NCBI RefSeq assembly: GCF_003858635.1
Contig: NZ_RQJO01000008.1
Span: 186,001-250,000, forward strand
Reading direction: 5' to 3'
Origin: Larkinella rosea
GTDB lineage: Bacteria > Bacteroidota > Bacteroidia > Cytophagales > Spirosomataceae
Length of the DNA stretch: 64,000 nt
The notes under the pieces were generated by a model. The model did not search any database. It had not been told where the DNA came from and saw nothing but the letters and a program-made list of their open reading frames with translations. The position numbers and the translations under genes were made by a program. Below are positions 18,330 to 52,118 of this stretch, piece by piece (positions within the stretch are counted from its first letter, which is position 1; every line of letters starts with the position of its first letter).

Positions 18330-19616
18330 CTACTTTTTCCGGACCGGTTTTTGGGGCGAATAGCCCTTTTTGCCGTGGAACCAGCTGGTAGCCTGGCCCG
18401 TCAGCCAGAGGTAATAATCGGAATCCAGCCCGGGTTCGATGCCCACAAATTTGCCGTCGCCGTTCAGCGGTAACTCATTTTCCCGTTTCGTCTTGAAAAT
18501 GGCCGTTCCTTCGTCCACTTCGTCGAACATCGCCACGTACAGACTTTGCGCCCCGGCCTGGTGAGCCCCCGCCACCTGCTGCCACAGAAAATCGCCTTTC
18601 AAACGCGGAATCTGGTTGTAGACGTTGGGACTGTTTTTGAGGTTTCCCCAACTGAATCCCGGAAAAACCAGCGGCACGTAATCGACTTGATTGGTTTTGC
18701 ACCAATCAATATCGCCCGCCAGCGTATTTCCCGAAACCGTCGCGTAGGTGTTGGGATTATACCGCCCAACGGCCCAGGGCATAATGATGTCGGCACTTTT
18801 GATGAGCGGATGCAGCAGTTCCGACGGTTCGGTATCCTTCGTCATCGTTCGCCAGTAATACGGCACGCCCAGCAAAACCGCCGTTTTCTTCGTCGGTCCT
18901 TTCACTTTCTCCATCAATCCCTGAATATCGGCCACGGTGTACCGGCGGTTGTCGTTAAAACCGACACCCCAAATCGCCAGCAGTGGTTTTCCGTTGTGCC
19001 GCAGATAGGTCGGATTTTCCTTGTTATTAAACAGCGCAAAAAGCTGTTGCAACTCGCTCCAGTCGTTCGCCAGCAAATCCATATCCGCCGAGGTCGAACC
19101 GCTGAGGTCGTACATGATGGAGATGGCCCGTTTGTGCTTTTTAGCCGCTTTCAGGGCGTTGGCCAGCACTTTGTTGAAATGCCGCTTGCCTTTTTCCGAC
19201 TTGATTTCGGACAAAAACCGCTGCATAAAAACCCCGTCGATGCCGTACTCTTTCATCCATTTGAAATGCAGGTCGACGCTGGTTTCGTCGTACGGACTAT
19301 ACACTGATGCGGTTTCGCCGTTAGCGTAGTTGAAAGCCGTCGGGTAAGTGGTCGGGTAGTCCTTTACATCGGGCCAGAAGTCGATCGACGCAAAACCGGG
19401 TTCGAATTTTCCGCGTTTCTGATAGTGGTGCCAGCCGCGGTCGGACGCATCGCCCTGAGCCGAAAACCAGCCCTGATAACCGGCCATAACCAGACCCTTG
19501 TAGCTAGTGTACAGGCAGCCGGTTTCGTCGTATTTAACTTCGACAGTCTGACTTTGGGCGTCGAAACCGGAAAGTAAGGCCAATAAAATCCCGGCCAGGA
19601 AAATGAGCTTTTTCAT
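18330..19616 (-). CDS. Secreted GH99/GH71-like glycoside hydrolase
   Basis: 428 residues from the ATG at 19616 (a TTG three codons earlier is less likely). Signal peptide MKKLIFLAGILLALLSGFDAQSQ. The fold pattern is that of GH71/GH99-like endo-acting mannosidases: GLVMAGYQGWF near the start, HFKWMKEYGIDGVFMQRFLSE, RAISIMYDLSGS, PLLAIWGVGFNDN and SLYVAMFDEVDEGTAIFKT. GH99 enzymes are endo-alpha-mannosidases or mannanases; activity here is not proven. It closes the minus-strand arm of the first glycan locus, behind a PVC-type cytochrome and a GH95 fucosidase. Confidence 0.85.
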   Translation of the reverse strand: MKKLIFLAGILLALLSGFDAQSQTVEVKYDETGCLYTSYKGLVMAGYQGWFSAQGDASDRGWHHYQKRGKFEPGFASIDFWPDVKDYPTTYPTAFNYANGETASVYSPYDETSVDLHFKWMKEYGIDGVFMQRFLSEIKSEKGKRHFNKVLANALKAAKKHKRAISIMYDLSGSTSADMDLLANDWSELQQLFALFNNKENPTYLRHNGKPLLAIWGVGFNDNRRYTVADIQGLMEKVKGPTKKTAVLLGVPYYWRTMTKDTEPSELLHPLIKSADIIMPWAVGRYNPNTYATVSGNTLAGDIDWCKTNQVDYVPLVFPGFSWGNLKNSPNVYNQIPRLKGDFLWQQVAGAHQAGAQSLYVAMFDEVDEGTAIFKTKRENELPLNGDGKFVGIEPGLDSDYYLWLTGQATSWFHGKKGYSPQKPVRKK

Positions 19617-19704
19617 GGAATTCAAGTAAAATCGTGTGTGTCAGGCTTGGTTTGTCAGCTTCTGCGGGTTAAAAATTATCCGTTAGGATTCAATAAGCGG
19701 TTTT

Positions 19705-21945
19705 TCATTTCTGATCCGGTTTTATGAGCTCGTCCAGCGTCCAAGCCTTCGAGCGTCCGGCAGTTTGCTCCCGAACGGCTTTGACATCGGCGGGTCGTAC
19801 GCCAACGCCCTGATTCGATCCAAATTCGTAGCGGATGTAACTCAGCACGGAAGCCAGCCACTCGTCGTCGTTGGCGCCCATCGCGGGCATCACGTCCGGG
19901 TACGTTTGGCCGTCGATCGGGCCGGACAAGCCGTGCAGTAAAATGCGGATCGCGATGTCTTTATTGCGGTTCCGAACGCGTTTCGAATCCACCAGCGGAG
20001 GAGCGGCTTTGCTTTCCAGTCCTTTGCCATCCGGCCCGTGGCAGGTCGTACACAGCGACTTATAAATTGTCGAACCGTTCAGCACCAGCTTCCGATCGAT
20101 TTCGTCGAGGCTGCCGAGTCGCCGTCCAAACTTCTTAACGTCTTCATTTTTGTCCAGGCTTCGCTGCGCACGGGCCACCATTTCATTGCCGGGTGCCAGC
20201 GTAATGATTTCCTGCGCCAGCGTTCTGGCTTTTGAATCCGGGCTGTACGATAATGAAAGAACCAATTGCGTGCGGACGTCGAAACTCGGATCGGTTTTCA
20301 AATCACCCAGCCGGGCCAGCAGAGTCGCATCGTTTTGTTTCAGATACGGTTCACTGAGCCGAACAGCGGTTTTTCTGACCTGCGCATCTTCGTCCGTCAA
20401 CGCTTTCAGCACAATGGTTTTATCCAGTGCATTCAACCCTTCCAGCGTCCACAACGCATGAATCCGGCCCAGGTCCGAAGCCGGTTTCTGGCCCGTTGCG
20501 ATGGTTTTCAGGGTGGGAACCACGGTTTGGTCGTTCCGGACAATCAGCTCTTTCTGGGCGTTATCGCGCCACCAGCCGTTCGCGTGATCGAGGTAGCTGA
20601 CCAGTTTGGCACTGGTTTCGTCGAGCATCTGCGGTTTCGGGCCGGGTTTGAGTCCGTCGTGAACCAGCCGGTAAATCCGTCCGTGCTGAATATTTTTGTC
20701 CAGTCCCAAACGTGTAATCTGGGGCCGCAGGTAACTGTCCGGGCGCGTCCAGTTACCTTCCTGAATAATACCCCGGTGCATATCGACCAGATACAGACAA
20801 CCGTCCGGACCGGTATACATGTTGACGACCCGGAAATTCATGTCGGTCGACGCAATGAATTCTTCTTTCTGGTACGCGTTTTCGAGTGTCGTTTTGCCCG
20901 CTACATTGCCGACTTTCGCCCGGCGGATCAGCCGACCGACCGGTTCCGAGATCAGCAAATCGCCCGACAAATCCGTCGGCAGCCGATCGCCCCGAAAAAC
21001 CACCTGCCCGCAACTGGCCGTGAAATGGTTCAGAGTGGTATCCGCCGGACGAATGCGCTGCACCCCACCCTGCACGTCCGGCGTTTTGATGATCGGCCAG
21101 ACGGCGTTGAATTCCTGGCTGTACTGATCGCTGAATTCCATCCGCCCGTAGATCGGATTGATCTGGAAACCCAGGGCCGGAACTTCGCCCCCCGCCGACG
21201 AGAAATACAGCCGCCCGTAATTGTCGTGCGTCAACCCCCACTGACCACCGGAACCGCTGGGAATCGTATCGGCTTTCAATACGCCACCGGTATACCGAAA
21301 CCGCACCGGGTCGACGGTCACGTAAATCCAGTTGTCGAGGTTCCAGTCCAGACCGCTGCGCTGGTGTTCCAGGTTGCCGGGGGCTTTTTTGCCCGGATTA
21401 AAAACCGGTTTTTTCTGATCGGCCACGCCGTCGCCGTTCGTGTCCTTGTAGCTGTAAATGTCGTAGGTATCGGTTTCGTTGACCAGCAACTCGTGACCGA
21501 CGCACAGCAACATGCGGGGTAACAGCAGTTTATCGATAAAAACGGAGCTTTTGTCCATTTTTCCATCGTTGTTGGTATCCTCCAGCAGCATCACCCGGCT
21601 CGTCGGATCATGTTCGTGGGAGCCGTCCACATCCTGCATGTAGGTGTTCATTTCCACCACGTACATGCGGGCGTTGCCATCCCAGGCCACCGCCACCGGT
21701 TCGTGAATCATCGGTTCGCTGGCCACCAGTTCGAGGTGATAGCCTTTCGGTAACCGAAACGATTTCAGGCTTTGTTCGGGCGTTAAATGAGCCGGTGACG
21801 GATTCTCAGTAAACGCCGGTACGGTTTGTTCGGATTGGCTCGTAGCGGTTTGGACGGAATTTGGGGCATTTTGCCGGGCTACCTGACAGGTAACGGCCAG
21901 CAACGACGCGGCCAGCACACTGCTGAGCCAGATTGTTTTTTTCAT
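19705..21945 (-). CDS. PVC-type heme-binding CxxCH protein (membrane-bound dehydrogenase-like)
   Basis: 746 residues from the ATG at 21945 (TTG at 21960 rejected). An N-terminal secretion signal with a possible but non-standard lipobox (LLAVTC) is followed by a beta-propeller of the membrane-bound dehydrogenase type (about 60-430; LPKGYHLELVASEPMIHEPVAVAWDGNARMYVVEM), a HEAT-like helical region (about 440-590) and a C-terminal cytochrome c domain with CTTCH (C632, C635, H636) and a candidate distal Met (PAMGANDDEWLASVLSYIR). Such proteins are thought to oxidise sugars or related compounds and pass electrons to heme c. It starts 27 bp after the GH95 stop codon. Confidence 0.9.
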   Translation of the reverse strand: MKKTIWLSSVLAASLLAVTCQVARQNAPNSVQTATSQSEQTVPAFTENPSPAHLTPEQSLKSFRLPKGYHLELVASEPMIHEPVAVAWDGNARMYVVEMNTYMQDVDGSHEHDPTSRVMLLEDTNNDGKMDKSSVFIDKLLLPRMLLCVGHELLVNETDTYDIYSYKDTNGDGVADQKKPVFNPGKKAPGNLEHQRSGLDWNLDNWIYVTVDPVRFRYTGGVLKADTIPSGSGGQWGLTHDNYGRLYFSSAGGEVPALGFQINPIYGRMEFSDQYSQEFNAVWPIIKTPDVQGGVQRIRPADTTLNHFTASCGQVVFRGDRLPTDLSGDLLISEPVGRLIRRAKVGNVAGKTTLENAYQKEEFIASTDMNFRVVNMYTGPDGCLYLVDMHRGIIQEGNWTRPDSYLRPQITRLGLDKNIQHGRIYRLVHDGLKPGPKPQMLDETSAKLVSYLDHANGWWRDNAQKELIVRNDQTVVPTLKTIATGQKPASDLGRIHALWTLEGLNALDKTIVLKALTDEDAQVRKTAVRLSEPYLKQNDATLLARLGDLKTDPSFDVRTQLVLSLSYSPDSKARTLAQEIITLAPGNEMVARAQRSLDKNEDVKKFGRRLGSLDEIDRKLVLNGSTIYKSLCTTCHGPDGKGLESKAAPPLVDSKRVRNRNKDIAIRILLHGLSGPIDGQTYPDVMPAMGANDDEWLASVLSYIRYEFGSNQGVGVRPADVKAVREQTAGRSKAWTLDELIKPDQK

Positions 21946-21972
21946 GGGTTTAGAAGACAAATGTCATGGCGA

Positions 21973-24447
21973 CTACAACGTCAATTGATAGCTTTTTCCG
22001 CTTTGCGTCGGGAAATCATACACGAAGGTTTCCTTCAGCGGCAGCGGGTTGAGTGTGGCCTGGGATGAAATCAAGGGTTTGGCGGTTTCTTCGGGCTGGT
22101 AAAACGGATTCGGATTGGTACCCTGAGCGGTTTTTAGTGCTACTCCGTTCGCTTTCAGGATATTCGGAACCCGAATCCGGCAGTTCCCCCCTTGGTTCGA
22201 CTTAATGGTCAATTTCGCAATTTTGCCGTCTTTCCATTCCATCGATACCAGTTCAAAACCGCCCCGTGCCCGCAAACCGCTGACTTTGCCATCCTTCCAG
22301 ACGTCGGGCAGGGCGGGCAGCAGGTGAACGGTTCCGTCGTGGCTTTGCAGCAGCATTTCGGCCACGCCCGCCGTACAGCCAAAGTTTCCGTCGATCTGGA
22401 ACGGCGGATGTGCGTCGAACAGGTTGGTGTAGGTGCCGCCCCCGCCTTTTTTGCCGGGCGCATTGACGGGCGAAAGCTGGTCAGTGATGAGTTTATACGC
22501 CCGGTTTCCGTCGAGGAGCCGCGCCCACCAGTTTACTTTCCAGCCCATCGACCAGCCCGTTGAAACGTCGCCCCGATGTTCGAGCGAGGTGCGGGCCGCG
22601 CTGAACAGTTCGGGCGTGCGGTAGGCCGACAGTTGCCCAGACGGGTACAAACCGTACAGGTGCGAAATGTGGCGGTGTTGGTCTTTCGGGTTGTCGAGGT
22701 CTTCCAGCCATTCCTGCAACTGCCCAAACTGGCCGACCTGCATCGGGGCCAGCCGGGCGCGTTTTTCTTTCAGAATTTTGACAAAATCCGCATCCGTATT
22801 CAGGGCTTCTGCCGACCGCAGGGCCGCCGTGAAAATGTCGAAAACCAGTTGATTATCCATCGTATGTCCCGCGCCAATCGTGACGTTCGGGCGGCTGGTC
22901 GGCGCGTTTTCGGGCGACATACTGGGGCTCACGACCAGCCAGTGGTGCGTCGGTTCTTCGATCAGAAAATCGACGAAGAATTGAGCGGCTCCCTTGATGG
23001 CCGGATAAACCGATTTCAGATAGGTTTTATCGCCGGAATACCGGTATTTCTCCCAGGCATGCTGGCTCAGCCAGGCGCCACTCATCGGCCACATGGCATA
23101 GAAAACCGGATCGACCAGCCCGGTAATCCGCCACAAATCGGTGTTGTGGTGGGCCACCCAGCCGCCTGCGCCGTACATGGTTCTGGCGGTTTCCTGCCCG
23201 GTTTGCGATAAATCCTTGACCATCTGAATCAGCGGCTCGTGCAGTTCAGTCAGGTTCGTGACCTCCGCGGGCCAGTAATTCATTTCGGTGTTGATGTTAA
23301 TCGTGTATTTGCTGTCCCAGGGCGGATTCATTTGCTGATTCCAGATGCCCTGCAAGGTCGCAGGCTGCCCCCCTACGCCGTTACGTCCGGGTTGCGAGCA
23401 GGAAATCAGCAAATACCGCCCAAACTGGAAATACAGCGAAACCAGTTGCGGATCGTTGCCGGAGGCAAACTGCCGGATTCGCTCGTCGGTGGGTAATTTG
23501 GCGGCATCGGTTGTGCCCAAATCCAGTTTCACCCGGTTAAAGTACGTTTGATAAGCCACGACGTGATCTTTCAAAACCGTATTGAAAGGTCGCGAAATCA
23601 CCCGGTTTAGCGGTTCTTCGGCTTTGGCTTGCGGATTGGCCGTCAGGGTTTTGTAATCCACAAAATTGGTCCCGATCGACACATAAAGCGTAGCGGCATT
23701 CGCGCCCGTTACCACCACCGACGTATCGTTGCGGCTGAGCCGACCACCTTCCGGCAACACCCTGACGTGCGCCTTGAACCGCACCTGCCCTTTAACACCT
23801 TCGTGGTCGCTGGTCATGCCCGTTAAAACCAGCTTGTTCGTGCCCTCGGTCTGGCGTTCGGTTTTTTGCGGACTGTTCAGAAAAGCCGTGAAGGTCAATT
23901 TGCCCGGCTGGCTGGCCGTCAGCCGAACGGCAATGACCTGATCGGGTACGGAAGCAAGCACCTGCCGGGTATATTTAACACCCGCAACGGTATAAGACGT
24001 GGTCGAAACGGCCCGCTCCAGATCCAGTTCCCGGTAATAATCGGTGAAGGATTCATGACCGGCGAACGCCAGATTCAGGTTGCCGACGGGCTGGAACATC
24101 ATGCCCTGTGCCTTTTTAGACTCGACTTTCTCGGCCGCCAGTTTCTGGGCTTCGGCGTGTTTTCCTTCAAAAATCAGCTTCCGGATGGTCGGTAAAGCCG
24201 CCAGCGCGTCGGGATTGTCGTTGCGGTTTGGCCCCCCCGACCAGACCGACGATTCGTTCAGTTTGATGATTTCCTGCTCCGGATTCCCGTAGACCATACC
24301 GCCCAGCCGCCCATTGCCGACGGGCAGGGCATCCGTCCAGGTTTTACCGGCGGGTTTGTTGTACCAAAGTTTCAGGGAAGCCGGTGGCTGCGCGTGACCG
24401 ATCAAGGTAAAGCCGAACAGAAACAGGCTGATGACTACGATTTTCAT
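21973..24447 (-). CDS. Glycoside hydrolase family 95 (alpha-L-fucosidase type)
   Basis: 824 residues with signal peptide [20 protein letters not shown]. The N-terminal [28 protein letters not shown] and [14 protein letters not shown] are classic GH95. The catalytic region contains [11 protein letters not shown], where the family's reacting Asn residues lie, and the downstream [16 protein letters not shown], which holds the Asp of the base pair. The family includes inverting alpha-1,2-L-fucosidases and alpha-L-galactosidases. First enzyme gene of the minus-strand arm, downstream of the TPR-like gene, so the locus probably handles fucosylated or galactosylated glycan. Confidence 0.95.
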
Positions 24448-24559: not shown

Positions 24560-24994
24560 CTACCGCCTTTCCAACGGGTCTTTCGTTCTTTCCAGCCCAT
24601 TTCGGATGCCCGATCGGATCATTTTTCCGTAGCCCTCATCCGGCAAACGATCCGCAAAAGACTGCGCCAGTTGGTAATGTTCTCGGGCCCGATCAAAATC
24701 CCGCAAATCTTCATACCCTTTCCCCACATTCAAATAAAGGGACGGATAGGCTTCCCGGGACGTTTCAGTTTCTTCCAGCAGAGCCAGCCGGAGCGCGGTT
24801 TCGTCCCATTTCAACTTGTCGGCCACGCTCGGTTGCTGACGGGCCACGTAATGGGCGGCAACAAACTTTTCAAAAGGAGTAATGGCTTCTGCCCAGGCCC
24901 GCTGAAAGAATTGACATGCTTTTTCAGGCTCGCCCTCGTGATTCATTCCTTCCGCACACAATTGCACGATTTTATTGTCGGGATCGAACGGCAT
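24560..24994 (-). CDS. Small TPR-like cytoplasmic protein
   Basis: 144 residues, no signal peptide. Two or three helical-hairpin repeats are visible (KACQFFQRAWAEAITPFEKFVAAHYVA; YLNVGKGYEDLRDFDRAREHYQLAQSFAD). Similar short proteins are common in Bacteroidota and are sometimes mislabelled as rRNA methyltransferases, but no methyltransferase motif is present. It lies 112 bp upstream of the GH95 gene. The candidate TTAAG operator/promoter about 490 bp further upstream points at it. Confidence 0.7.
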   Translation of the reverse strand: MPFDPDNKIVQLCAEGMNHEGEPEKACQFFQRAWAEAITPFEKFVAAHYVARQQPSVADKLKWDETALRLALLEETETSREAYPSLYLNVGKGYEDLRDFDRAREHYQLAQSFADRLPDEGYGKMIRSGIRNGLERTKDPLERR

Positions 24995-25486: not shown

Positions 25487-25531
25487 CAAATTACGTGTAG
25501 CCATCTTAAGAAAATCTTAATAAATACTTAA
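25487..25531 (-). promoter_or_regulatory. Triple TTAAG operator (11-bp phased) with -7-like box, pointing to the GH95 arm
   Basis: On the minus strand TTAAG occurs at 25531-25527, 25520-25516 and 25509-25505, an exact 11-bp period. After 11 more nt comes TAATTTG (25493-25487), close to the TAnnTTTG -7 box. The same arrangement, in the same relative orientation and with the same 11-nt gap, precedes SusC at 28463-28507. Over the 27-bp core the two sites agree at 24 positions. Direct repeats at 11 bp are the usual layout for OmpR/SARP winged-helix proteins, and the gene between the two sites encodes such a domain. Confidence 0.6.
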
Positions 25532-25644
25532 CGGGCTGGAAAATCGGCAGATTTCAGCAAAAGATAGTAAGAAATTTTGGGCTTAGGGAGATTCGGGTGT
25601 TTTACCCGGAATACAAAAAAAAGCCCCAAAACCGTTGAACTGTC

Positions 25645-28245
25645 CTAGTCGATAATGGCCGAGAAAGGCTGCTCGTATTCTTCGCCGTAAATGGCTTTGT
25701 AGTCGCGGGTAAATTTCTCGAACGTGTTCTTGGCCAGTGTGTGTTTGCCCATGAGCGACAGCGCCTTACACTTTAGAATAATGGCGTCTTCGTTGACGGG
25801 ATCGTAATAAAAAATGAAGTTGGTGAGTTCGATCAGAAATTCCGGATCGTCACTAATGTTCAGTTTTTCCGCGTATTGCAGGAACGTATTAATGATTTTG
25901 TTGGAACTGTCGGCTTTGAAATCGTCCAGCCAGTAGTATTCGGTATTCAGTAAAAAAGAACCTCGCTTGGTGATTTCGCCCAGCTCGAAAATGGTTTGTT
26001 TCGTCAGGGCAGATTTGTGGTTGATAATCGCCATGTAGCGCTCGTAATCGACGTAAAGCTGACTGAAATCGAACTCCACTTTCCAGTAACCCGACTCTTT
26101 GGAGAGTGAACAAAAACCGACTTTATCCAGAATAGTGCGCAGTTTGGCGATATTGACCGAGCGGTTATTGCCCGCGTCGCGCCCGGACTTGTCGGGCCAC
26201 AGAATTTCGTTGAGTTTTTCGGACGGAACCCCGCGCTGCTTGTCGATGCTGTTGAGCGCCAGCAGCAGAAAAAGCTCTTTCAGCAGGGGCGTAAACGACT
26301 TGGTGATGTCGCAGCCGTCGTGGTCGAGCACCTGAAAATTACCGAAAAAGAAAATGCTCGCTTTCGGCGTTGGCTCGGTTTGCAAAGCGCGGGCTGCCGG
26401 GCGATTTTCCGGCGTTGGCAGCGGTTTTTCTTCGGGAAGTCCGACGGCCATTTCGGCCTTCTTTCGGCTTCCACCCCGGCGGTTTTTATTTTTACGGTAA
26501 TACAGAAATACGAGCACGCCTACACCCAAAAACGCCAATCCCAGTAAGCCGTAGTTAACCGACGATTGCTGATCCGGAACCGAATGCGTCTCCAGCGTAT
26601 TCGGCGGAAACGAAATCGAATACAGCTTTACGTCCGTCGTGTTGTTCGGTTCATTGCGATAGAGCACCACCGCAATCAGCTTCTGGCTAATCGGGCAATA
26701 ATACAGGTCCGAATACGAGTGAATATCGTGGAATTGGTACGGAATGGAATGGCCCACCAACTCATACCTTGGTTCTGACAACGAGCCGCGAATCAATTGG
26801 AGTTGCGATTTAAACTGCTGATTAGGGAAAATAAGTCCATAAAAAACCTTCGCTTTCGGATCGATCACGAGGGAATTAGCAAACGCAAAATCCGATTTTG
26901 GAACGTTTAATTCGTAGATTTTCCGGAATGTATTGTCCTTCACCCGGTATTCCAGAAGATCGTAATTACTCTTGGGATTGAGCATTTGTTCGCCCGTCAG
27001 ACTGCCATAACCGCCGATCAGATAAGCCGTATCAGCAGAAGGATTGACACCCAAAGCGGCAAGGTAACGAGGTGTGTATACGTTATCAATTGTCGGAACG
27101 GTTTCCCATTGCCTGGTCGCAAACCGATACCGATGAATGCGGTTTTTATATGTTAACTGGCCGTAGCCACCCAGAATATACAATGCAGAATCAGTGCTGG
27201 AAATAAACTGATTGGCGTGCCAGTATTCCGTTACCTTGATAGGACTGGGCGTAATGGTTTCGGCGGTCCAGCTGCGCGAAACCGGGTCATACACTGAAAC
27301 CGCTTTCTGGTCTACAAAATAGTCGTACAGGCGGGCAGTATACGGATTGTAAATGGCTTGGCTGCCCAGAAAGAAGCTCTGGGGTGGGTTTTTGTGCAAT
27401 TGCACCGAGCCTTGTCGGTTGCGAACGGCGTATTGATACAACGCATTCGAGCCAATCACGTACACGGTTTCGGACTTTGGATCAAAGGCGACGCTCGTCC
27501 GGCCTTTCAGCGATAATTGGTCCGTTAATTTCCATTCGTTGTGCAGCGATTTGATCCAGACCGGATTTTTAACGGTAGCAATTCGGCCGGAAATATCATC
27601 TTTAGCGGTTATTCCCCCGACTTCGTTCAACGGCCAGTGGTAAACCGGTTCGTCATTTTCAGACAGGATTATATCTTTCAGATTCATCGGCGGCACGTCT
27701 TTCGATTTGAATCGATTAAATTCATTTCCACCGAAAAACAATTTAAAACAACTCCGCTCTTTAAAATGGATTTTATCCGTGATCACCAGCCTGTCGTTCA
27801 CATAAACGCGCATCGCCTGGCTTTTCAAATCCAGTTGAAGTTTAAAGTGATTCCAGTGGTGGTATAAATGCGCCGAGTCGATTTTAATCACGGATTGCGA
27901 AAACCGCTCGCCAATAATCATTTTAAAATTCAGTGATTTCTGGTCGTAAAGCAGATCGAGGTTCTGCGCATCGTCCTGAATCATCCGGAAAATGTAGCCG
28001 AAATACGTTTTGTAGCCGCCCGTCAGCGATAGATCAAATGACAGTTCAAGATTGCCGTCGAGGCACAGTGGTTTTTCGGGTGCCAGATCCAGCGACGTCC
28101 GGTTGTCCTGCATTTCTTCCTGACCCACAAACCGCAACCCGTAGGACTGAGCCCGAAGCGAAACCGTCGCCGACAGCAGGGCGATTACCGTAAAAAAGAA
28201 GGAACGTCGTAAAAAGCTGGATCGTGATCGGTTAAAGCCCTCCAT
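25645..28245 (-). CDS. Membrane-spanning sensor-regulator: LamG-like and beta-propeller ectodomain with cytoplasmic SARP/OmpR-like winged helix
   Basis: About 866 residues from the ATG at 28245 (an ATG at 28305 would give a 20-residue longer, less signal-like start). Order: signal peptide (RRSFFFTVIALLSATVSLRAQ); concanavalin/LamG-like domain to about residue 220 (LELSFDLSLTGGYKTYFGYIF; MRVYVNDRLVITDKIHF); kelch-like propeller to about 570 (ILGGYGQLTYKNRIHRYRF; YLIGGYGSLTG); one transmembrane helix (LLGLAFLGVGVLVFLYY) with a basic stop; cytoplasmic winged helix (IFFFGNFQVLDHDG, TPLLKELFLLLAL, LNEILWP, NNRSVNIAKLRTIL) and a BTAD-like helical tail. It has no kinase or receiver, so it probably senses glycan outside and binds DNA inside directly. 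It sits between the two arms of the first glycan locus, flanked by matching TTAAG triplets. Confidence 0.85.
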   Translation of the reverse strand: MEGFNRSRSSFLRRSFFFTVIALLSATVSLRAQSYGLRFVGQEEMQDNRTSLDLAPEKPLCLDGNLELSFDLSLTGGYKTYFGYIFRMIQDDAQNLDLLYDQKSLNFKMIIGERFSQSVIKIDSAHLYHHWNHFKLQLDLKSQAMRVYVNDRLVITDKIHFKERSCFKLFFGGNEFNRFKSKDVPPMNLKDIILSENDEPVYHWPLNEVGGITAKDDISGRIATVKNPVWIKSLHNEWKLTDQLSLKGRTSVAFDPKSETVYVIGSNALYQYAVRNRQGSVQLHKNPPQSFFLGSQAIYNPYTARLYDYFVDQKAVSVYDPVSRSWTAETITPSPIKVTEYWHANQFISSTDSALYILGGYGQLTYKNRIHRYRFATRQWETVPTIDNVYTPRYLAALGVNPSADTAYLIGGYGSLTGEQMLNPKSNYDLLEYRVKDNTFRKIYELNVPKSDFAFANSLVIDPKAKVFYGLIFPNQQFKSQLQLIRGSLSEPRYELVGHSIPYQFHDIHSYSDLYYCPISQKLIAVVLYRNEPNNTTDVKLYSISFPPNTLETHSVPDQQSSVNYGLLGLAFLGVGVLVFLYYRKNKNRRGGSRKKAEMAVGLPEEKPLPTPENRPAARALQTEPTPKASIFFFGNFQVLDHDGCDITKSFTPLLKELFLLLALNSIDKQRGVPSEKLNEILWPDKSGRDAGNNRSVNIAKLRTILDKVGFCSLSKESGYWKVEFDFSQLYVDYERYMAIINHKSALTKQTIFELGEITKRGSFLLNTEYYWLDDFKADSSNKIINTFLQYAEKLNISDDPEFLIELTNFIFYYDPVNEDAIILKCKALSLMGKHTLAKNTFEKFTRDYKAIYGEEYEQPFSAIID

Positions 28246-28462
28246 TATTCGGGTTGTCCCGCCCGCCAGTCGGTATTGGTTGACTATTTGAGCGTCGCCT
28301 TTCATTGTACGGCTTATTTTTTCGGGACGAATGGCGTTCCCAATGCCCCTAAGTTATCCAATATTCCCCTTCTGTCAAAGCCAGCGAAGTGCTCAACCCG
28401 CTGAAGTAAATTAGAAAAAAACCATAATAAAATTGATAAAACGCAGATAGAAGCCCTCTTAA

Positions 28463-28507
28463 TTAAGCAATTATTAAGATTTTTTTAAGCCCTGACGGCG
28501 TTCTTCG
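28463..28507 (+). promoter_or_regulatory. Triple TTAAG operator (11-bp phased) upstream of SusC
   Basis: TTAAG starts at 28463, 28474 and 28485, exactly 11 bp apart. After another 11 nt comes TTCTTCG (28501-28507), a weak -7-like element. It mirrors the site at 25487-25531. The repeats take the place of a -33 box, as for class II activator sites. A weak core promoter behind a repeat array fits activation by the neighbouring winged-helix regulator. Transcription would begin near 28513, which favours 28539 as the SusC start codon. Confidence 0.6.
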
Positions 28508-28538
28508 CCCCATGTTTAATCCAACAAAATCAGGGTTT

Positions 28539-31500
28539 ATGCAAAAAAATTTATCTGACTTAAAAACCGTGTGCGGGCCTTTCGGGCACCTTGCGCGGGT
28601 GTTCCTGCTCAGCGGCTTGTCGGCAACGCTGCCCGCTCAGGCGCAGGAACTGCTGGCCCACCGGGCCAATCTGCCACCGGTTTCGGTGATCAAACCGGCT
28701 TATTCGCAAACCGGTGCAACGGCAGGCAAATTGCAGGACCGCACGGTTACGGGGAAAGTTTCCGACGAAAAAGGGGCGGTTTTGCCGGGCGTGAACATCG
28801 TCATCAAAGGCACCACGCGCGGAACAACCACCAACGAAAAAGGGGTTTATTCGCTCAGCATCCCGAACGGACCCACCACACTGGTCTATTCGTTTGTCGG
28901 CTACCTTTCCTACGAAGTGAGTGTCGAAAACCGCAGTTCGCTTGACGTGACGCTGAAGGAAGACGCGCAGGCGCTGGGCGAAGTCGTAGTGGTCGGTTAC
29001 GGCACGCAGCGAAAAGTAAACGTCACCGGTGCCATTGCGACCGTTGCCAGTAAAGAGCTGGTGATCAACTCCAACAACGACGTAACCAACACGCTGACTG
29101 GCCGGGCGCCGGGCGTTCGGGTGGTGCAGTTGTCGAGCCAGCCCGGTAAATACGACTCCCAAATCGATATTCGCGGATTTAGTTACACCGATCCGAACGA
29201 CATCAATGGCAACCAGACCGGCGGACCGCTGATCATCGTGGATGGCGTGCAACGGGACAAGGCCGGTTTTGATCGGCTGGACCCGAACGAAATCGAAAGC
29301 GTTTCGATCCTGAAAGATGCGACGGCAGCCATTTATGGCGTCAAAGCGGCCAACGGCGTGGTGCTGGTAACGACCAAGAAAGGCAGCCAGGGCAAGGTGC
29401 AGGTCAATTACACGACGCACGTGGGGCAGCAGATTATCACCCGCTACCCGGCTTTGTCAAACGCTTTTCAATACGCTACCCTGTACAACGAACAGCAGGT
29501 CAACAACAACATCAGCAACCGCGCTGAGCTAACACCACCCAAGTATTCGGCCGCACAACTGGCCGATTTTGAGAGCGGCAAGGCCACAAGCACCGATTTT
29601 TTGAAGGCGGTTTTGCGCGATCGGGCGTCGCAGCAGCAGCACAACCTGACCATCAACGGCGGGACGGAAAAGCTGCGGTATTTTGCCTCCGCCGGTTTTT
29701 TTGGCGAGGGCGGTTTGTTCAATTCCGATATTTTGATGGGGAAAAAATACAACCTCCGGCTCAATGTCGACGCTGAACTGACCAAAGGGCTGACGATGGG
29801 CGCGAACATCGCGTTGATCAACTCGATCAGCCGGGAGCCGAGCCAGGCCATGTGGTCTTTGCTGAAAAACACTTGGCAGTGGGACCCCACCGAACCGCTC
29901 TATTCCAACAACGACCCGGCTTACCTGCGGCAACCGCTCAGTGCGCTGAGCCATCCCGTTGCCGATTTTTCGGAAGCCTACAGCGGCTATAACCGGAACG
30001 ACGAAAAATTCCTGACCTCCACTTTTCAGTTGGGATACGTGGTTCCGTTCGTGAAGGGGCTGAGCGTTAAGGCGCAGTATGCGTACGATGTGAATTACAA
30101 TTTCCGGAAGCAATTCACCAAAAAATACAACCAGTACGAATACCTGTTCGACGCGGCCACGCAGACGTATTACCAAAAACCGTATTTGCATTTAGCTCCC
30201 TCACGCATCAGCGAAGCGTTTGGGCAGGGAAAACGCAACGATCTCCAGTTGTCGTTCAATTACCAGAACAGCTTCGGAAAACACAATATCGGTGCTCTGG
30301 GCCTGTACGAGCAGATCGACCGGGTGAACAACAGCAACAACGCTTCCACGCAGTTTATCATCGACGCCGTTGATCAGCTCGCAGCCGGGAGCCGCAAAAC
30401 CGATGCCATTGGATCCGGGTACAGTTCGAGCGCCAACATGAGTTACGTCGGCAAAGTGAATTACGATTACGCCGGAAAGTACCTGATCGAAGCCGGTTTT
30501 CGCTACGACGGCTCATCGAGTTTTCCGAAAAACAGCCGCTGGGGCTTTTTCCCGTATTTCTCGGCGGGCTGGCGGCTTTCCGAAGAGGTCTTTGTTCGCA
30601 ACAACCTGCCCTTCGTTTCCAATCTGAAACTGCGCGGGTCGTACGGTGTGCTGGGCGACGATGGCATTGCGGGCGCGTCGTTCCAGTTCCTGACCGGTTA
30701 TACATATCCGAGCAGCGGTTATCAGTTTGGAACGACCTTCGTAGGCGGGCTGGGTTTCAAAAACTCGGCGAACCCGAACATTACCTGGTATACCTCGACG
30801 ACCACCAATTTTGGTCTGGAAGGCTCACTCTGGAACAATTTGCTGACGTTCGAAGCCGATGTGTTCCGCCGGGATCGCGACGGTTTATTAGGCGACCGCA
30901 TCTCGACCATTCCGGCGACGTACGGCGTCAACCTGCCGCAAGTCAATCTGAATCAGGATCGTACGCAGGGCTTTGAGCTTGTTCTGGGCCACCGTAACAA
31001 GTTCCGGGATATTAATTACTCGATTTCGGCCAACATGAGTTACGCCCGGACACAATACCGTTACCGTGAAGAAACGCCCGCCAACAGCGACTATGATTTC
31101 TGGCGAAACCGCAACGCCGGACGGTTCAACGACGTGGTGTGGGGTTACAAAACCGATGGACAATTTACGAGCCTCGAGGAAATCCGGAACTGGCCCATTA
31201 TGGACGGCGCCGGAAACCGCACGATCCTGCCCGGTGACATTCGGTACGTGGACCTGAACGGCGACGGGATCATCAACAACCTCGACGAAACCGTCATCGG
31301 GCGCGGACAGAGCAAACCGGCCATTTATTTCGGTACAAACATTACCGTTTCGTGGAAAGGCTTCGACATTTCGATGCTGTTGCAGGGCGCCACCATGTAT
31401 CAGGTAGCCTATCAGGATCAATTGTCGCGACCGTTCTATTTTGCTACGGCCAACCCGATCAGCGCCTTCAATGACCGCTGGCACCGCTCCGATATCGTGG

Positions 31501-31814
31501 ATGCCACCAGTGAGTGGATTCCGGGGAAATATCCGTCGACCGGCCAGCGGCAGAACTACAAAAGCAACGAATTCTGGCGGTTCGATGCCACGTACCTGCG
31601 TGTGAAAAGCCTGGAAGTCGGTTACAGTCTGCCGAAAACGCTGTTGAGCAAAGCCCACATCAAAGGATTACGCGTCTTCGGAAACGGTTACAACCTGTTT
31701 ACTTTTTCGAAAGGACTCGACTTCGTGGACCCGGAATACACGGATGACCGGCTGTACAGTTACAACTATCCGCTGACCATGAACGTAAACCTGGGTCTCC
31801 AACTTTCTTTTTGA
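28539..31814 (+). CDS. SusC/RagA family TonB-linked outer membrane protein
   Basis: About 1091 residues from the ATG at 28539; the ATG at 28512 would precede the likely transcription start. After the signal peptide (cleavage near PAQAQ) comes a CarboxypepD_reg domain (VTGKVSDEKGAVLPGVNIVIKGTTRGTTTN), the SusC signature EVVVVGYGTQRKVNVTGAI, a plug with the GGPLIIVDGVQRD box, KDATAAIYGVKAANGVVLVTTK, and a 22-strand-type barrel to the C-terminus. There is no STN domain, so no FecR-type signalling is expected, in line with the winged-helix regulator next door. With SusD it imports large oligosaccharides across the outer membrane. Confidence 0.96.
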   Translation: MQKNLSDLKTVCGPFGHLARVFLLSGLSATLPAQAQELLAHRANLPPVSVIKPAYSQTGATAGKLQDRTVTGKVSDEKGAVLPGVNIVIKGTTRGTTTNEKGVYSLSIPNGPTTLVYSFVGYLSYEVSVENRSSLDVTLKEDAQALGEVVVVGYGTQRKVNVTGAIATVASKELVINSNNDVTNTLTGRAPGVRVVQLSSQPGKYDSQIDIRGFSYTDPNDINGNQTGGPLIIVDGVQRDKAGFDRLDPNEIESVSILKDATAAIYGVKAANGVVLVTTKKGSQGKVQVNYTTHVGQQIITRYPALSNAFQYATLYNEQQVNNNISNRAELTPPKYSAAQLADFESGKATSTDFLKAVLRDRASQQQHNLTINGGTEKLRYFASAGFFGEGGLFNSDILMGKKYNLRLNVDAELTKGLTMGANIALINSISREPSQAMWSLLKNTWQWDPTEPLYSNNDPAYLRQPLSALSHPVADFSEAYSGYNRNDEKFLTSTFQLGYVVPFVKGLSVKAQYAYDVNYNFRKQFTKKYNQYEYLFDAATQTYYQKPYLHLAPSRISEAFGQGKRNDLQLSFNYQNSFGKHNIGALGLYEQIDRVNNSNNASTQFIIDAVDQLAAGSRKTDAIGSGYSSSANMSYVGKVNYDYAGKYLIEAGFRYDGSSSFPKNSRWGFFPYFSAGWRLSEEVFVRNNLPFVSNLKLRGSYGVLGDDGIAGASFQFLTGYTYPSSGYQFGTTFVGGLGFKNSANPNITWYTSTTTNFGLEGSLWNNLLTFEADVFRRDRDGLLGDRISTIPATYGVNLPQVNLNQDRTQGFELVLGHRNKFRDINYSISANMSYARTQYRYREETPANSDYDFWRNRNAGRFNDVVWGYKTDGQFTSLEEIRNWPIMDGAGNRTILPGDIRYVDLNGDGIINNLDETVIGRGQSKPAIYFGTNITVSWKGFDISMLLQGATMYQVAYQDQLSRPFYFATANPISAFNDRWHRSDIVDATSEWIPGKYPSTGQRQNYKSNEFWRFDATYLRVKSLEVGYSLPKTLLSKAHIKGLRVFGNGYNLFTFSKGLDFVDPEYTDDRLYSYNYPLTMNVNLGLQLSF

Positions 31815-31822
31815 AATCCAAA

Positions 31823-33613
31823 ATGAAGAATATCAAAACATACCTTGCCTTGCTGTTGACGGTCGGTTTGTCGGCCTGCAACGATAGTTTTCTGGATAAA
31901 AAACCGGTTGACCTGTTGACCGCCGAACAGGTGTACAACAGTCCGGAGGCCGTGGAAGCCTACTTCGCTACTTTATACAAGGACTTGCCCATTGAGGATT
32001 TCAGCTTCTGCAACGGGCGGTTTGGCGAATTTCCGGCCAACGGCGATGGGTACACCGCCAACTGGACCTGGGAAACCACCAACTCGACCAATGCCGCCAA
32101 CAACGACGAAAACTGGGGGAAACTCTACCGGGCGGTTCGGAACGTGAACACGTTTATCAAGGAAATTGCGACGGTAGCCCTCCCCGAAGCCACCAAAAAC
32201 GCGTACGTCGCCGAAGCCCGGTTTGTACGGGCGTATTATTACCAGGAACTGGTCAAATACTGGGGTGGAGTGCCGATTTTGCTGGAACCCCAACAGGTCG
32301 ACGACAGCAATACGCAATCCCTGAACCTGCCGCGCAGCAAAGAAGCTGAAGTCTGGGATCTGGTGAAATCCGATCTGGATTTTGCCGTGGCTAACCTACC
32401 GGTTTCCAGTGTGTATGGACGCGCCAACAAGTACGTGGCGCTGGCGCTGCTTTCGCGTTCGATGCTGCATGCCGGTTCCATCGCCAAATTCGGAACGGTT
32501 CAGCTGGACGGTTTGGTGGGCATCGATCCGTCGAAGGCAACACCTTATCTGCAAGCGGCTTACGATGCGTCAAAGGCGATTATTGACGGCGGGAAATACA
32601 GCCTTTTCAATAAATACCCGACTGATAAAGCGCTGAATTTTCAGATGCTGTTTTTTGAATTACAGGGTAATTCAGAAGCTATTTTCTGCAAAGGCTGGGA
32701 TTATGAATCGACCCGCCGGACGCACTCGCAGGATCTGATGGCGTTGCCGGAAGCCATTCGCTCGCCGATCGGTTACGCCAACCGCCTGACGCCAACGCTG
32801 GATATGGTTGAGCGGTTTGAGTACATGGATGGGACACCCGGAACGCTGAACATCGGGACGCCCGGAGCCTACGTCCATTACGCCAATCCGCAGGATGTTT
32901 TCAAAAATAAAGATCCCCGGTTTTTCGGTTCGGTCATTTCGACGGGCAGTTCATTCAAAGGTGTCGAGATTACCGGCCAGCGGGGGGTGATTTACAATGG
33001 GGTAAAATACAACGGCACGGCGCTCAATCAGTATTTCGACATCGATAAGAAACAGATTGTAGCCAATCCGACCGCCAATTCGGTGCGCGCGACCGGGAAC
33101 TCCAACAACGGCGCGAGCGTGTTCTGGCTGAAAAAGTGGCTTGATCCGGCCCGGCCCGCCAATTTATGCGTGGACTGGAGTTCGGAAACCGACTGGCTGG
33201 ACATGCGCCTGGGCGAAGTGCTGCTCAATTTTGCGGAGGCTTCGTTTGAACTGGGAAAACCGGCCGCCGAAGCCCTCGATGCCGTCAATCAATTGCGTAC
33301 CCGCGCGGGCATTGCCAAACTGACAACCATCGACCGTAGCAAAATCCGGAACGAACGCAATGTAGAACTGGCTTTCGAAAACCGCACCTTCTGGGATTTG
33401 AGAAGATGGCGCACCCTTACCACCGAATTCAGCGGCTGGATTCCGAGCGGACTTTACATCTATTACGACGCGAACGCCAAAGATTACGTCTTTGAAAGAA
33501 CACCAAACGGCGGTGGCAAAACCTACCAGCTCAAAGACTACTACTTCCAAATCCCTTCGTCTGAACGTAGCAAAGCGGGCTCATTATTAGGAAACGGAAA
33601 CCCAGGTTACTAA
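31823..33613 (+). CDS. SusD/RagB family nutrient-binding lipoprotein
   Basis: 596 residues from the ATG at 31823, 8 bp after the SusC stop (a TTG at 31811 is rejected). Lipoprotein signal ending LLTVGLSAC, then NDSFLDKKPVDLLTAEQVYNSPEAVEAYFATLY typical of SusD N-termini. TPR-like helices follow (FVRAYYYQELVKYWGGVPIL), and the C-terminus has the family WDLRRWR and FQIPSSE motifs. It forms the lid of the SusC transporter and binds glycan at the cell surface. Confidence 0.96.
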   Translation: MKNIKTYLALLLTVGLSACNDSFLDKKPVDLLTAEQVYNSPEAVEAYFATLYKDLPIEDFSFCNGRFGEFPANGDGYTANWTWETTNSTNAANNDENWGKLYRAVRNVNTFIKEIATVALPEATKNAYVAEARFVRAYYYQELVKYWGGVPILLEPQQVDDSNTQSLNLPRSKEAEVWDLVKSDLDFAVANLPVSSVYGRANKYVALALLSRSMLHAGSIAKFGTVQLDGLVGIDPSKATPYLQAAYDASKAIIDGGKYSLFNKYPTDKALNFQMLFFELQGNSEAIFCKGWDYESTRRTHSQDLMALPEAIRSPIGYANRLTPTLDMVERFEYMDGTPGTLNIGTPGAYVHYANPQDVFKNKDPRFFGSVISTGSSFKGVEITGQRGVIYNGVKYNGTALNQYFDIDKKQIVANPTANSVRATGNSNNGASVFWLKKWLDPARPANLCVDWSSETDWLDMRLGEVLLNFAEASFELGKPAAEALDAVNQLRTRAGIAKLTTIDRSKIRNERNVELAFENRTFWDLRRWRTLTTEFSGWIPSGLYIYYDANAKDYVFERTPNGGGKTYQLKDYYFQIPSSERSKAGSLLGNGNPGY

Positions 33614-33626
33614 AAACCGTATACGT

Positions 33627-34361
33627 ATGAAATCGATCAAATTAGCATTTCTCCTTCCCATTCTGCTGATTGGTGCCCTCAGTGGCTGCAAGAACTGGGA
33701 TAATTTTGTGGCCCCGGATGCGGGCGTTTACGGAAAAATTACGGATGCCGAAAACGGTCAGCCGCTCGAACTCCGGCAGCCCGGTGGTGGCACGGTGCGG
33801 TTTATTCAGTGGGACAAGGTGAAGTATCCAAATCCCGGCACCACCGATATTGAACTGAAAGCCAACGGCGAATTTTCGGCCACGCAGTTTTTTGCGGGTA
33901 CGTACAAAGCCCTCCCGCGCGACGGCGCTTTTCTGTACCAACCCGCCGATTCGGTGATGGTCGACCTTGGCAACGGTGATCGCAAGGAAGTAAATTTCAA
34001 GGTGACGCCGTTCTATCGGGTTACGGCTAATGTAACCGATAGTACATTTACGTATACGATAACAAAACCGGCGGCCAATACGACGACCAAAATATCCCAG
34101 ATCATTTTCATGATCAACAATTATTCGAAAGTCGATGAAAGTATTAGCTCCAATGCGTCGGGGTATTTTATCAATCTCTGGCGGCAGGATATTGCGAGCA
34201 GCGTAACCGATGCCAGCATTGTGGGCGCTCCCCGGACGTTTACGTTCAAATGGTCCGAGACGCATTTGCCGAAGGGGGAGTATTATTTCCGGGTCGGGGT
34301 TCGTACAACCGCCGTTGCCAAATACAATTACAGCCCGGTTGTGAAAGCTACGGTGCGGTAA
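33627..34361 (+). CDS. DUF3823 domain lipoprotein of the SusCD operon
   Basis: 244 residues; lipoprotein signal MKSIKLAFLLPILLIGALSGC. The mature part starts NWDNFVAPDAGVYGKITDAENGQPLELRQPGG, the form of the DUF3823 N-terminal carboxypeptidase-like fold, followed by a second beta-sandwich. Such proteins sit beside SusD and probably bind glycan at the surface. It starts 13 bp after SusD, and a terminator follows, so it is the last gene of the plus-strand arm. Confidence 0.85.
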   Translation: MKSIKLAFLLPILLIGALSGCKNWDNFVAPDAGVYGKITDAENGQPLELRQPGGGTVRFIQWDKVKYPNPGTTDIELKANGEFSATQFFAGTYKALPRDGAFLYQPADSVMVDLGNGDRKEVNFKVTPFYRVTANVTDSTFTYTITKPAANTTTKISQIIFMINNYSKVDESISSNASGYFINLWRQDIASSVTDASIVGAPRTFTFKWSETHLPKGEYYFRVGVRTTAVAKYNYSPVVKATVR

Positions 34362-51357: not shown

Positions 51358-52047
51358 ATGCAAATTCGCCAACAAATCGATTTCCCGAGTCAACCCCCGG
51401 AGGGGCAGCCCCGCCCGTTGGCGTCTTCCAGCCTGGACGACGAACTTCAGCCCGAAACCCCGGCCTTCAACGATGGCGAGCTGTTCATCCGCCGGGCTTT
51501 CGACGAAAGTCCCCGGAAAGGTTGTGAGCTGCTGTTTCGGCGGTACCACCAGGCCTTGTGCAGTCACGCCGTCCGGTTTGTCTATTTAAAAGAAACCGCC
51601 GAAGACCTGGTGAGCGACGTTTTCTGTAAATTCTGGAAGACGAAGGCCTACGCGACCATCACCTCGTCGTACCGCTACTACCTCTTCCGTAGCGTTCGGA
51701 ACGAAGCCTACAATTACCTCCGGCTGGAATTTCAAAAACTGGACGGTATCGAGACCGCCGAAATTCGGGAGGGCGCGCTCAGCCAGCGGCCGGATCAGGT
51801 ACTGCAATTTGAAGAGGTGGTGCATAAAGTGGAAGATCTGGTCGAATCGCTGCCCCCGCAATGCCGGAAAGTGTTTTTCATGAGCCGGTTTGAAGGGAAA
51901 AAATACCAGGACATTGCCACGGAACTGGGGCTTTCCGTCAAAACCGTTGAAGTCCACATCGTGAAAGCCCTCAGCATTGTCCGAAAAGGGATGAAAGATT
52001 ACTGGCTGATGCTCGTCTCCGTGATCGGACATTCGCTTTTCCTCTGA
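51358..52047 (+). CDS. FecI-like ECF sigma-70 factor
   Basis: 229 residues. Region 2 (LLFRRYHQALCSHAVRFVYLKETAEDLVSDVFCKFW; SSYRYYLFRSVRNEAYNYLR) and region 4 (SLPPQCRKVFFMSRFEGKKYQDIATELGLSVKTVEVHIVKAL) match the Bacteroidetes family of SusC-linked sigma factors. An N-terminal extension of about 40 residues is Pro/Ser-rich. A FecR anti-sigma gene follows after 71 bp, then SusC with an STN domain, the standard trans-envelope switch. Confidence 0.95.
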   Translation: MQIRQQIDFPSQPPEGQPRPLASSSLDDELQPETPAFNDGELFIRRAFDESPRKGCELLFRRYHQALCSHAVRFVYLKETAEDLVSDVFCKFWKTKAYATITSSYRYYLFRSVRNEAYNYLRLEFQKLDGIETAEIREGALSQRPDQVLQFEEVVHKVEDLVESLPPQCRKVFFMSRFEGKKYQDIATELGLSVKTVEVHIVKALSIVRKGMKDYWLMLVSVIGHSLFL

Positions 52048-52118
52048 TTTCGCGGGCGGCAACTCCGGCCGAAAACCGCTCGTTTGACCCTTCCTTCGAA
52101 CAAATAGTATGATGAAAT

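Follow-up and report, generated by a model that had tools for sequence, protein, structure and literature searches.

A predicted membrane-tethered SARP-type regulator and its phased TTAAG triplets at glycan loci of Larkinella rosea and related Bacteroidota

A 64,000-nucleotide window of the Larkinella rosea genome (contig NZ_RQJO01000008.1, positions 186,001 to 250,000) encodes an 886-residue membrane-spanning protein, P0001, hereafter the regulator, whose gene lies between two matching DNA sites of three TTAAG words at an exact 11-bp period. Several lines of evidence make it very probable that the regulator is a one-component, membrane-tethered member of the SARP (Streptomyces antibiotic regulatory protein) family that activates loci for mannose- and fucose-containing glycans through these triplets, a form of control distinct from SusR, hybrid two-component systems and FecI/FecR. 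The C-terminal domain is modelled as a complete SARP unit, the triplets occur in this genome at the regulator gene and nowhere else, and in the family the same words recur beside homologous genes with a fixed period and at a fixed distance from a promoter element.

The regulator and its C-terminal domain

The regulator is encoded in a single uninterrupted open frame. A full-length AlphaFold model (pLDDT 77, built with 16 sequences) runs from a signal helix through a beta-sandwich, a propeller, a transmembrane (TM) helix and a low-confidence linker to a winged helix and further helices up to residue 885, with a strongly basic stretch directly after the TM helix marking the cytoplasmic side. A sequence-only reading of this DNA had proposed a secreted LamG-like and propeller ectodomain, one membrane helix, and neither kinase nor receiver. 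The one membrane helix appears in the model, and a Pfam scan of the regulator and 16 members found no histidine kinase, receiver or AraC domain, in agreement with that proposal. The ectodomain claim stands for the propeller, since Kelch_6, Kelch_4, Kelch_1 and Kelch_2 are the sole Pfam matches above cut-off in the protein; a Foldseek search with the propeller matched kelch and sialidase propellers. The term LamG-like draws on the model and on a weak Laminin_G_3 match in one of 16 homologues, and is used here with that qualification.

Modelled alone with 15 homologues, the C-terminal domain reached a pLDDT of 92.2 and folds into an OmpR-type winged helix-turn-helix (wHTH) followed by BTAD-like helices. 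Its six Foldseek matches in the PDB at E < 0.001 are all SARPs, namely EmbR (2fez, and 2ff4 twice) and AfsR (8hvr, and 8k60 twice), at E-values of 4e-7 to 4e-6, and the next-ranked match has an E-value of 0.07. The structure prediction envisaged in the sequence-only reading was a confident one, and the winged helix read from the letters is there, although the domain is a full SARP unit rather than a winged helix alone. As modelled, it has the SARP architecture of an OmpR-type winged helix and then a BTAD helical domain. Sequence and profile searches of solved structures were uninformative (one chance-level match and none, respectively), so the domain was placed by fold search only; among its 15 homologues Pfam weakly matches Trans_reg_C in five and BTAD in three. 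W703 and the basic residues 18 and 20 positions further on have the spacing of W74, R92 and R94 in AfsR, a comparison by spacing and not by alignment. In the homologues where it was read, the recognition helix, NNR[SA]VN..K, varies no more than the TTAA core of the sites does, a comparison that leaves out five second copies (L175, L176, L178, L179 and L180).

Phased triplets in the window and across genomes

The two triplets flanking the gene are identical at 24 of 27 positions, and each is followed after 11 nt by a -7-like element, TAATTTG on the minus side and TTCTTCG on the plus side, the latter reading TACTTCG in two relatives. Exact matching bears out what the sequence-only reading had said of both sites, their positions, their agreement and the spacing to the element. 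The pattern TTAAG-N6-TTAAG-N6-TTAAG occurs exactly twice in the whole 8,174,678-base genome, both times flanking the regulator, which is itself single-copy; the reversed-pattern control does not occur, and the looser pattern of three TTAA words at period 11 is found in 11 places against 4 for its control. With up to three mismatches allowed, the window holds six triplet matches, several of which are overlapping readings of the two sites, and none of 100 dinucleotide shuffles of the window reaches six. On the 3′ side of the regulator, an alignment of five genomes of the genus shows the operator and its -7 element as a conserved island amid diverged DNA.

Of 149 relatives, 20 have a homologue of the C-terminal domain; so do 62 of 222 family genomes (70 hits) and 12 of 395 genomes sampled across the phylum, ten of these outside the family and one of the ten at E 2e-4 only. 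The close relatives identified by name are Larkinella terrae, L. knui, L. punicea, Larkinella sp. C7, Spirosoma arboris and S. endophyticum. In each of the 12 genomes whose homologue is close (~65% identity or more), an exact TTAAG triplet lies no more than 12 kb from that gene, at up to 3 kb in 11 of them and at 9.7 kb in the other. The three genomes of the genus without the regulator contain no exact triplet. Across the 222 family genomes there are 112 exact TTAAG triplets, against 14 matches of the reversed-pattern control; 22 lie within 12 kb of a homologue, which leaves ~0.4 unlinked sites per genome. Triplets whose second spacer reads [ACG]NTTTN, compared by eye, number 23 and all belong to regulator-bearing genomes, 22 within 12 kb of the gene and one 21 kb away.

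Among 69 homologue loci (the 70 hits less one weak hit, L185), the intergenic DNA of 55 contains an exact period-11 TTAA triple, that of nine a one-mismatch triple only and that of five none; a narrower search range had given 50 of 69. Together with the 12 close-homologue genomes, these counts uphold the expectation that triplets should lie near homologous regulators. Over 70 loci (one counted twice), three TTAA words occur in 138 strand-readings at period 11 and in at most six at any other period from 8 to 16. The published Bacteroidota -7 consensus is TAnnTTTG (PMC7366714); searched as TAnTTnG or TAnnTTTG, the element follows exact triples 43 times at offset 11 and 4 times at all other offsets from 0 to 22. 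The aligned sites read TAnTTnG, a pattern that was itself part of their selection. Periods 9, 10, 12 and 13 combined yield a single hit with a -7 element. The full arrangement, an exact triple with the element at offset 11, is present in 40 of the 69 loci, 30 in a genus denoted g32, six in the Spirosoma-type genus g5 and four in the genus of the window. In other genera the words shift towards TTAAT, with a deviation at one letter in some cases, and offset 10 is common for the -7 element. All intergenic DNA was used for these counts because a count upstream of the nearest SusC gene missed loci with GH92 or extracytoplasmic function (ECF) sigma targets; in that count 28 of 44 cases matched 11 or more of 12 letters at period 11, against 1 to 9 of 44 at the other periods from 8 to 14, and it is not a clean gene-level control, with 51 of 410 other genes also reaching at least 11 of 12 at period 11.

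Proposed mechanism, competing explanations and known systems

In the mechanism we propose, the periplasmic sandwich and kelch propeller would sense a glycan fragment outside the inner membrane, and the signal would pass through the one membrane helix to the cytoplasmic wHTH/BTAD domains, whose protomers would align side by side on the three TTAA[G/T] words at intervals of one helical turn. With 16 bp from the start of the third word to the -7 element, bound protomers would cover the -33 region, which is poor, and, like AfsR, would keep the primary sigma factor in place. Both arms, that of SusCD and that of the GH95, cytochrome and GH99-like genes, would thereby be switched on together. The ligand is most likely a glycan rich in mannose and fucose, given that GH92, GH99-like, GH95 and GH29 genes neighbour the sites. 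In Spirosoma-type genomes the triplet faces an ECF-sigma gene, and the regulator would therefore act upstream of that sigma factor, above a second control layer (ECF sigma, then FecR and SusCD genes where examined). A broader proposal, which we hold at a little better than even, is that a Bacteroidota-wide class of transmembrane SARPs exists in which a glycan on the outside assembles three tethered SARP domains on phased words by the -7 element, with this switch placed, in part of the family, above an ECF/anti-sigma SusCD module as a two-tier circuit.

The geometry of the sites is consistent with this mechanism. AfsR protomers lie next to one another, each in contact with one 11-bp repeat, and sigma region 4 sits on them rather than in the -35 groove; SARP sites more generally have repeats at 11 or 22 bp, the 3′ repeat lying 8 bp from the -10 element (PMC10936776). 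The spacing from third word to -7 element here is close to that geometry, and the suggestion that 11-bp repeats reaching the -35 region are a SARP mode of activation fits the published picture (PMC10936776). The window sites share the SARP trait of 11-bp repeats at a fixed -10/-7 distance as a property of linked sequence, not of binding.

Several observations weigh against this interpretation. The concern that triplets might be equally frequent elsewhere does not apply to this genome, where both of two lie at the regulator, but family-wide 90 of the 112 exact triplets are unlinked to it, some of them beside OmpR-type two-component genes. The full arrangement is missing from 29 of the 69 loci, 15 of which have the exact triple only; nine others offer a one-mismatch triple only, that of L174 not being convincing, and the searched DNA of L131, L138, L141, L147 and L151 contains no triple, although a further stretch did contain the L131 site. 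As the 40 loci that show the full arrangement are confined to three genera, they are not independent, and in some of them (e.g., L137) the site lies ~10 kb from the regulator. Outside the order, 11 loci with distant homologues contain no exact triple; a one-mismatch triple is present in two, and a SusC gene was recognised in one, where three TTAA words stand at period 12. The operator rule, as read from sequence, is thus shown for the family and not for the phylum. On the 5′ side of the regulator the five-genome alignment contains further conserved blocks besides the operator. Finally, the C-terminal domain reaches no Pfam threshold for Trans_reg_C or BTAD, a threshold that is an annotation convenience and not a trait defining SARPs.

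The unlinked triplets raise the question of whether the words are boxes of an ordinary OmpR-type response regulator encoded elsewhere, the membrane protein being merely a neighbour. Of 20 windows fetched at unlinked exact triplets (sites in G037 and G062 not among them), nine have, at ~1.6 kb or less, a gene for a response regulator that combines receiver and Trans_reg_C domains, as that explanation would predict. Yet in L. rosea no exact triplet lies away from the membrane regulator, the three regulator-less genomes of the genus lack exact triplets, and the [ACG]NTTTN-spacer triplets, compared by eye, are all in regulator-bearing genomes. Triplets also stay with the regulator gene while the targets vary among SusC, GH95, GH92, ECF sigma and GH99-like genes, and we regard an elsewhere-encoded regulator as improbable. 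Less probable again is that the sites are repressor operators at which the bound protein blocks the promoters until a ligand releases it. The second and third words would, judging from the -7 distance, overlap the -33 region as a repressor site might, but the -7 element comes after all three repeats, at a fixed spacing, which is the arrangement of SARP activation, and the model built with 15 homologues includes the BTAD-like domain. The spacers between the words are T-rich, which would suit a structural A/T-rich promoter feature such as curved upstream DNA with no dedicated protein; the exact period of 11, the constant TTAA words, the linkage to one gene family and the genome count of two do not fit such a feature, and we give it hardly any weight beside activation by the membrane-tethered SARP.

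Exact TTAAG triplets or quadruplets at the 11-bp period lie within ~1.6 kb of an OmpR-type response-regulator gene at L054, L055, L057, L058, L059, L060, L065, L067 and L072, and on sequence grounds the triplet or quadruplet is apparently a box of OmpR-type two-component systems in this order. Because they also occur beside such genes, we no longer take TTAAG triplets to be exclusive to the membrane regulator. The AfsR repeats are likewise recognised by a response regulator, PhoP (PMC10972967), a parallel to the triplets beside OmpR-type response regulators here.

The regulator can be compared with several known systems. With SARPs (AfsR and EmbR, and by literature DnrI and ActII-ORF4) it shares the order of wHTH then BTAD and 11-bp repeats that overlap the -35 region with the 3′ repeat at a short fixed distance from the -10/-7 element, three repeats being present in some published SARP sites (PMC10972967, PMC10936776). 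Unlike them, it comes from Bacteroidota and is linked to glycan loci rather than antibiotic clusters, it is fused through a membrane helix to a periplasmic sandwich and kelch sensor, and its SARP domain is C-terminal instead of N-terminal, with no FHA, NOD or TPR regulatory part. In the ToxR type, the cytoplasmic winged helix is N-terminal and the sensor C-terminal, and the type is not known to include a BTAD. The order in the window regulator is sensor, TM helix, wHTH and BTAD, although ToxR and CadC are likewise single proteins in which a membrane anchor joins a sensor to a winged helix (PMC5430869). SusR-like regulators similarly unite periplasmic sensing with SusCD target genes in one protein, but the motifs predicted for SusR consist of a pair of sites at a distance of 67 or 77 bp (PMC3878776) whereas three words stand 11 bp apart here; the distinction is drawn from operator spacing and not from SusR sequence. 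Hybrid two-component systems also have a periplasmic propeller sensor and glycan-locus targets, and their ectodomains 3ott and 4a2m are among the Foldseek hits, but the regulator is without their histidine kinase, receiver and AraC domain. FecI/FecR systems likewise carry a membrane signal to SusCD genes, through a separate ECF sigma and anti-sigma where the regulator is one protein with its own DNA-binding domain. The comparison supports the earlier claim of a control type distinct from SusR, hybrid two-component and FecI/FecR systems.

Among the matches listed in open-access literature we found no description of a SARP in Bacteroidota glycan control or of a membrane SARP, and we rate the system as a new assembly of known parts. 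If the mechanism is correct, Bacteroidota would have another route to glycan-locus control, with a kinase-free signal path and a predicted operator code, and a promoter mechanism described chiefly for SARPs that control antibiotics in actinobacteria would be seen to work from the membrane and on Bacteroidota promoters. Target genes in related genomes would become predictable from the operator rule (three TTAA[G/T] words at 11 bp, 11 nt, then a -7 element).

Neighbouring genes and predicted targets

Features of the window are collected in Table 1. The SusC gene probably starts at ATG 28539, given that L085-L087 begin at an equivalent MQK and that the -7 element lies too close to the alternative start at 28512. 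The sequence-only reading had the sites pointing outward, one at SusC-SusD and the other at a GH95/cytochrome/GH99 arm, and this stands for the plus site and for the GH95 and cytochrome genes; a secure identity for the GH99 gene was dropped. Searches of Pfam and NCBIfam at E 0.001 and of the PDB at 0.01 gave no match for that protein, and its homologue at L146 matches Glyco_hydro_99 below cut-off (18.8 bits against 33). The GH99-like gene is nevertheless present in all six genomes of the genus with the regulator and absent from the three without it.

Table 1. Annotated features around the regulator gene in the 64,000-nucleotide window
Feature	Coordinates	Strand	Basis
GH99-like protein, weak assignment	18330..19625	-	Below-cut-off Glyco_hydro_99 match of homologue L146
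DUF7133/PVC-type haem-binding cytochrome protein	19705..21960	-	Pfam, NCBIfam
GH95 enzyme (alpha-fucosidase family)	21973..24447	-	Pfam Glyco_hydro_95_cat, E 2e-179
Small ORF between minus operator and GH95, weak TPR hit	24560..24994	-	Pfam
-7-like element TAATTTG, 11 nt past triplet	25487..25493	-	Motif match
Predicted operator, TTAAG x3, 11-bp period, facing GH95/cytochrome/GH99-like arm	25505..25531	-	Exact pattern match
Membrane-spanning regulator P0001, 886 aa	25645..28305	-	Single uninterrupted open frame
BTAD-type helical domain, residues 753-885	25651..26049	-	AlphaFold, Foldseek
OmpR-type winged helix, residues 649-745, recognition helix NNRSVNIAKLR	26071..26361	-	AlphaFold, Foldseek (EmbR/AfsR)
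Single TM helix, residues 585-606	26488..26553	-	Full-length model
Kelch-type beta-propeller, residues ~259-565	26611..27531	-	Pfam kelch models, Foldseek
N-terminal beta-sandwich, residues 57-235, lamin-G/ConA-like	27601..28137	-	Full-length AlphaFold model
Predicted operator, TTAAG x3, 11-bp period, facing SusC	28463..28489	+	Exact pattern match
-7-like element TTCTTCG, 11 nt past triplet	28501..28507	+	Motif match
SusC-type TonB-dependent transporter	28539..31814 (longest frame from 28512)	+	NCBIfam TIGR04056, 842 bits
SusD-type lipoprotein	31811..33613	+	Pfam SusD_RagB, E 7e-46
DUF3823 protein, third gene of SusCD arm	33627..34361	+	Pfam DUF3823 and DUF3823_C

In relatives the predicted targets are named by labels (among them ECF, FecR, SusC2, SusD2 and GH99) assigned to window proteins and carried over by blastp, of which ECF, FecR, SusC2 and SusD2 were confirmed by Pfam and GH99 was not. 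The GH95 frame starts 34-192 nt after the minus site in three relatives. Of 35 first-copy loci in g32, 22 have the site pointing at a gene of 738-761 aa, and the two such genes tested are GH92 by Pfam; two of these loci, L146 and L148, have a second triple that faces the GH99-like gene. The triplet faces an ECF-sigma gene in all seven g5 loci, three of the sigma genes having been checked by Pfam, and the S. endophyticum site 9.7 kb from the regulator faces ECF, FecR, SusC and SusD genes with a GH99-like gene further on. A further triplet in G268 (L223), 21 kb away from the regulator, immediately precedes the GH99-like gene, and a one-mismatch triple at L078 faces a GH29 fucosidase. One site at L132 faces an AMP-binding enzyme and one at L080 a GMC oxidoreductase, neither of which fits the glycan theme.

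Seven genomes have a clear second copy of the regulator, and their operators were compared by eye only. In six (L175-L180) a SusC gene follows, at a distance of 98 nt, a triple whose spacers are different; the second copy at L174 has no convincing triple. The second copies at L175-L180 have TTAAGTCC-type operators, unlike those of the first copies in the same genomes, and because of this difference the sequences suggest that letters 6-8 of the operator separate the two regulons.

Other arrangements were seen at single loci. In another order (L221:10110-10170), a regulator homologue of 26% identity lies beside SusC (40%) and SusD (35%) genes, and three TTAA words ahead of SusC have a period of 12, not 11, with a TATACTTG element again 11 nt on. 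Distant homologues occur as neighbouring pairs at L215:6849-10573, L219:7325-11819 and L220:7363-11857, the second copy at L215 being a 271-aa frame with a SARP domain and without a sensor. The weak hit at L185:6784-8262 is a 492-aa protein that differs in its N-terminal half and matches the SARP profile at E 2.6e-7, possibly a related regulator with another input. In the window itself, the cytochrome c protein with DUF7133 and PVC-type haem-binding regions, which lies within the glycan arm, is 88-98% identical in four close relatives (L084-L087), the small ORF is present in G004 (L084) and absent from L085-L087, and a 244-aa frame, matched by eye, occupies the place of the DUF3823 gene in four relatives. 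The ECF/FecR pair of the window (51358-53120) is ~23 kb off, beside its own TonB receptor and SusD.

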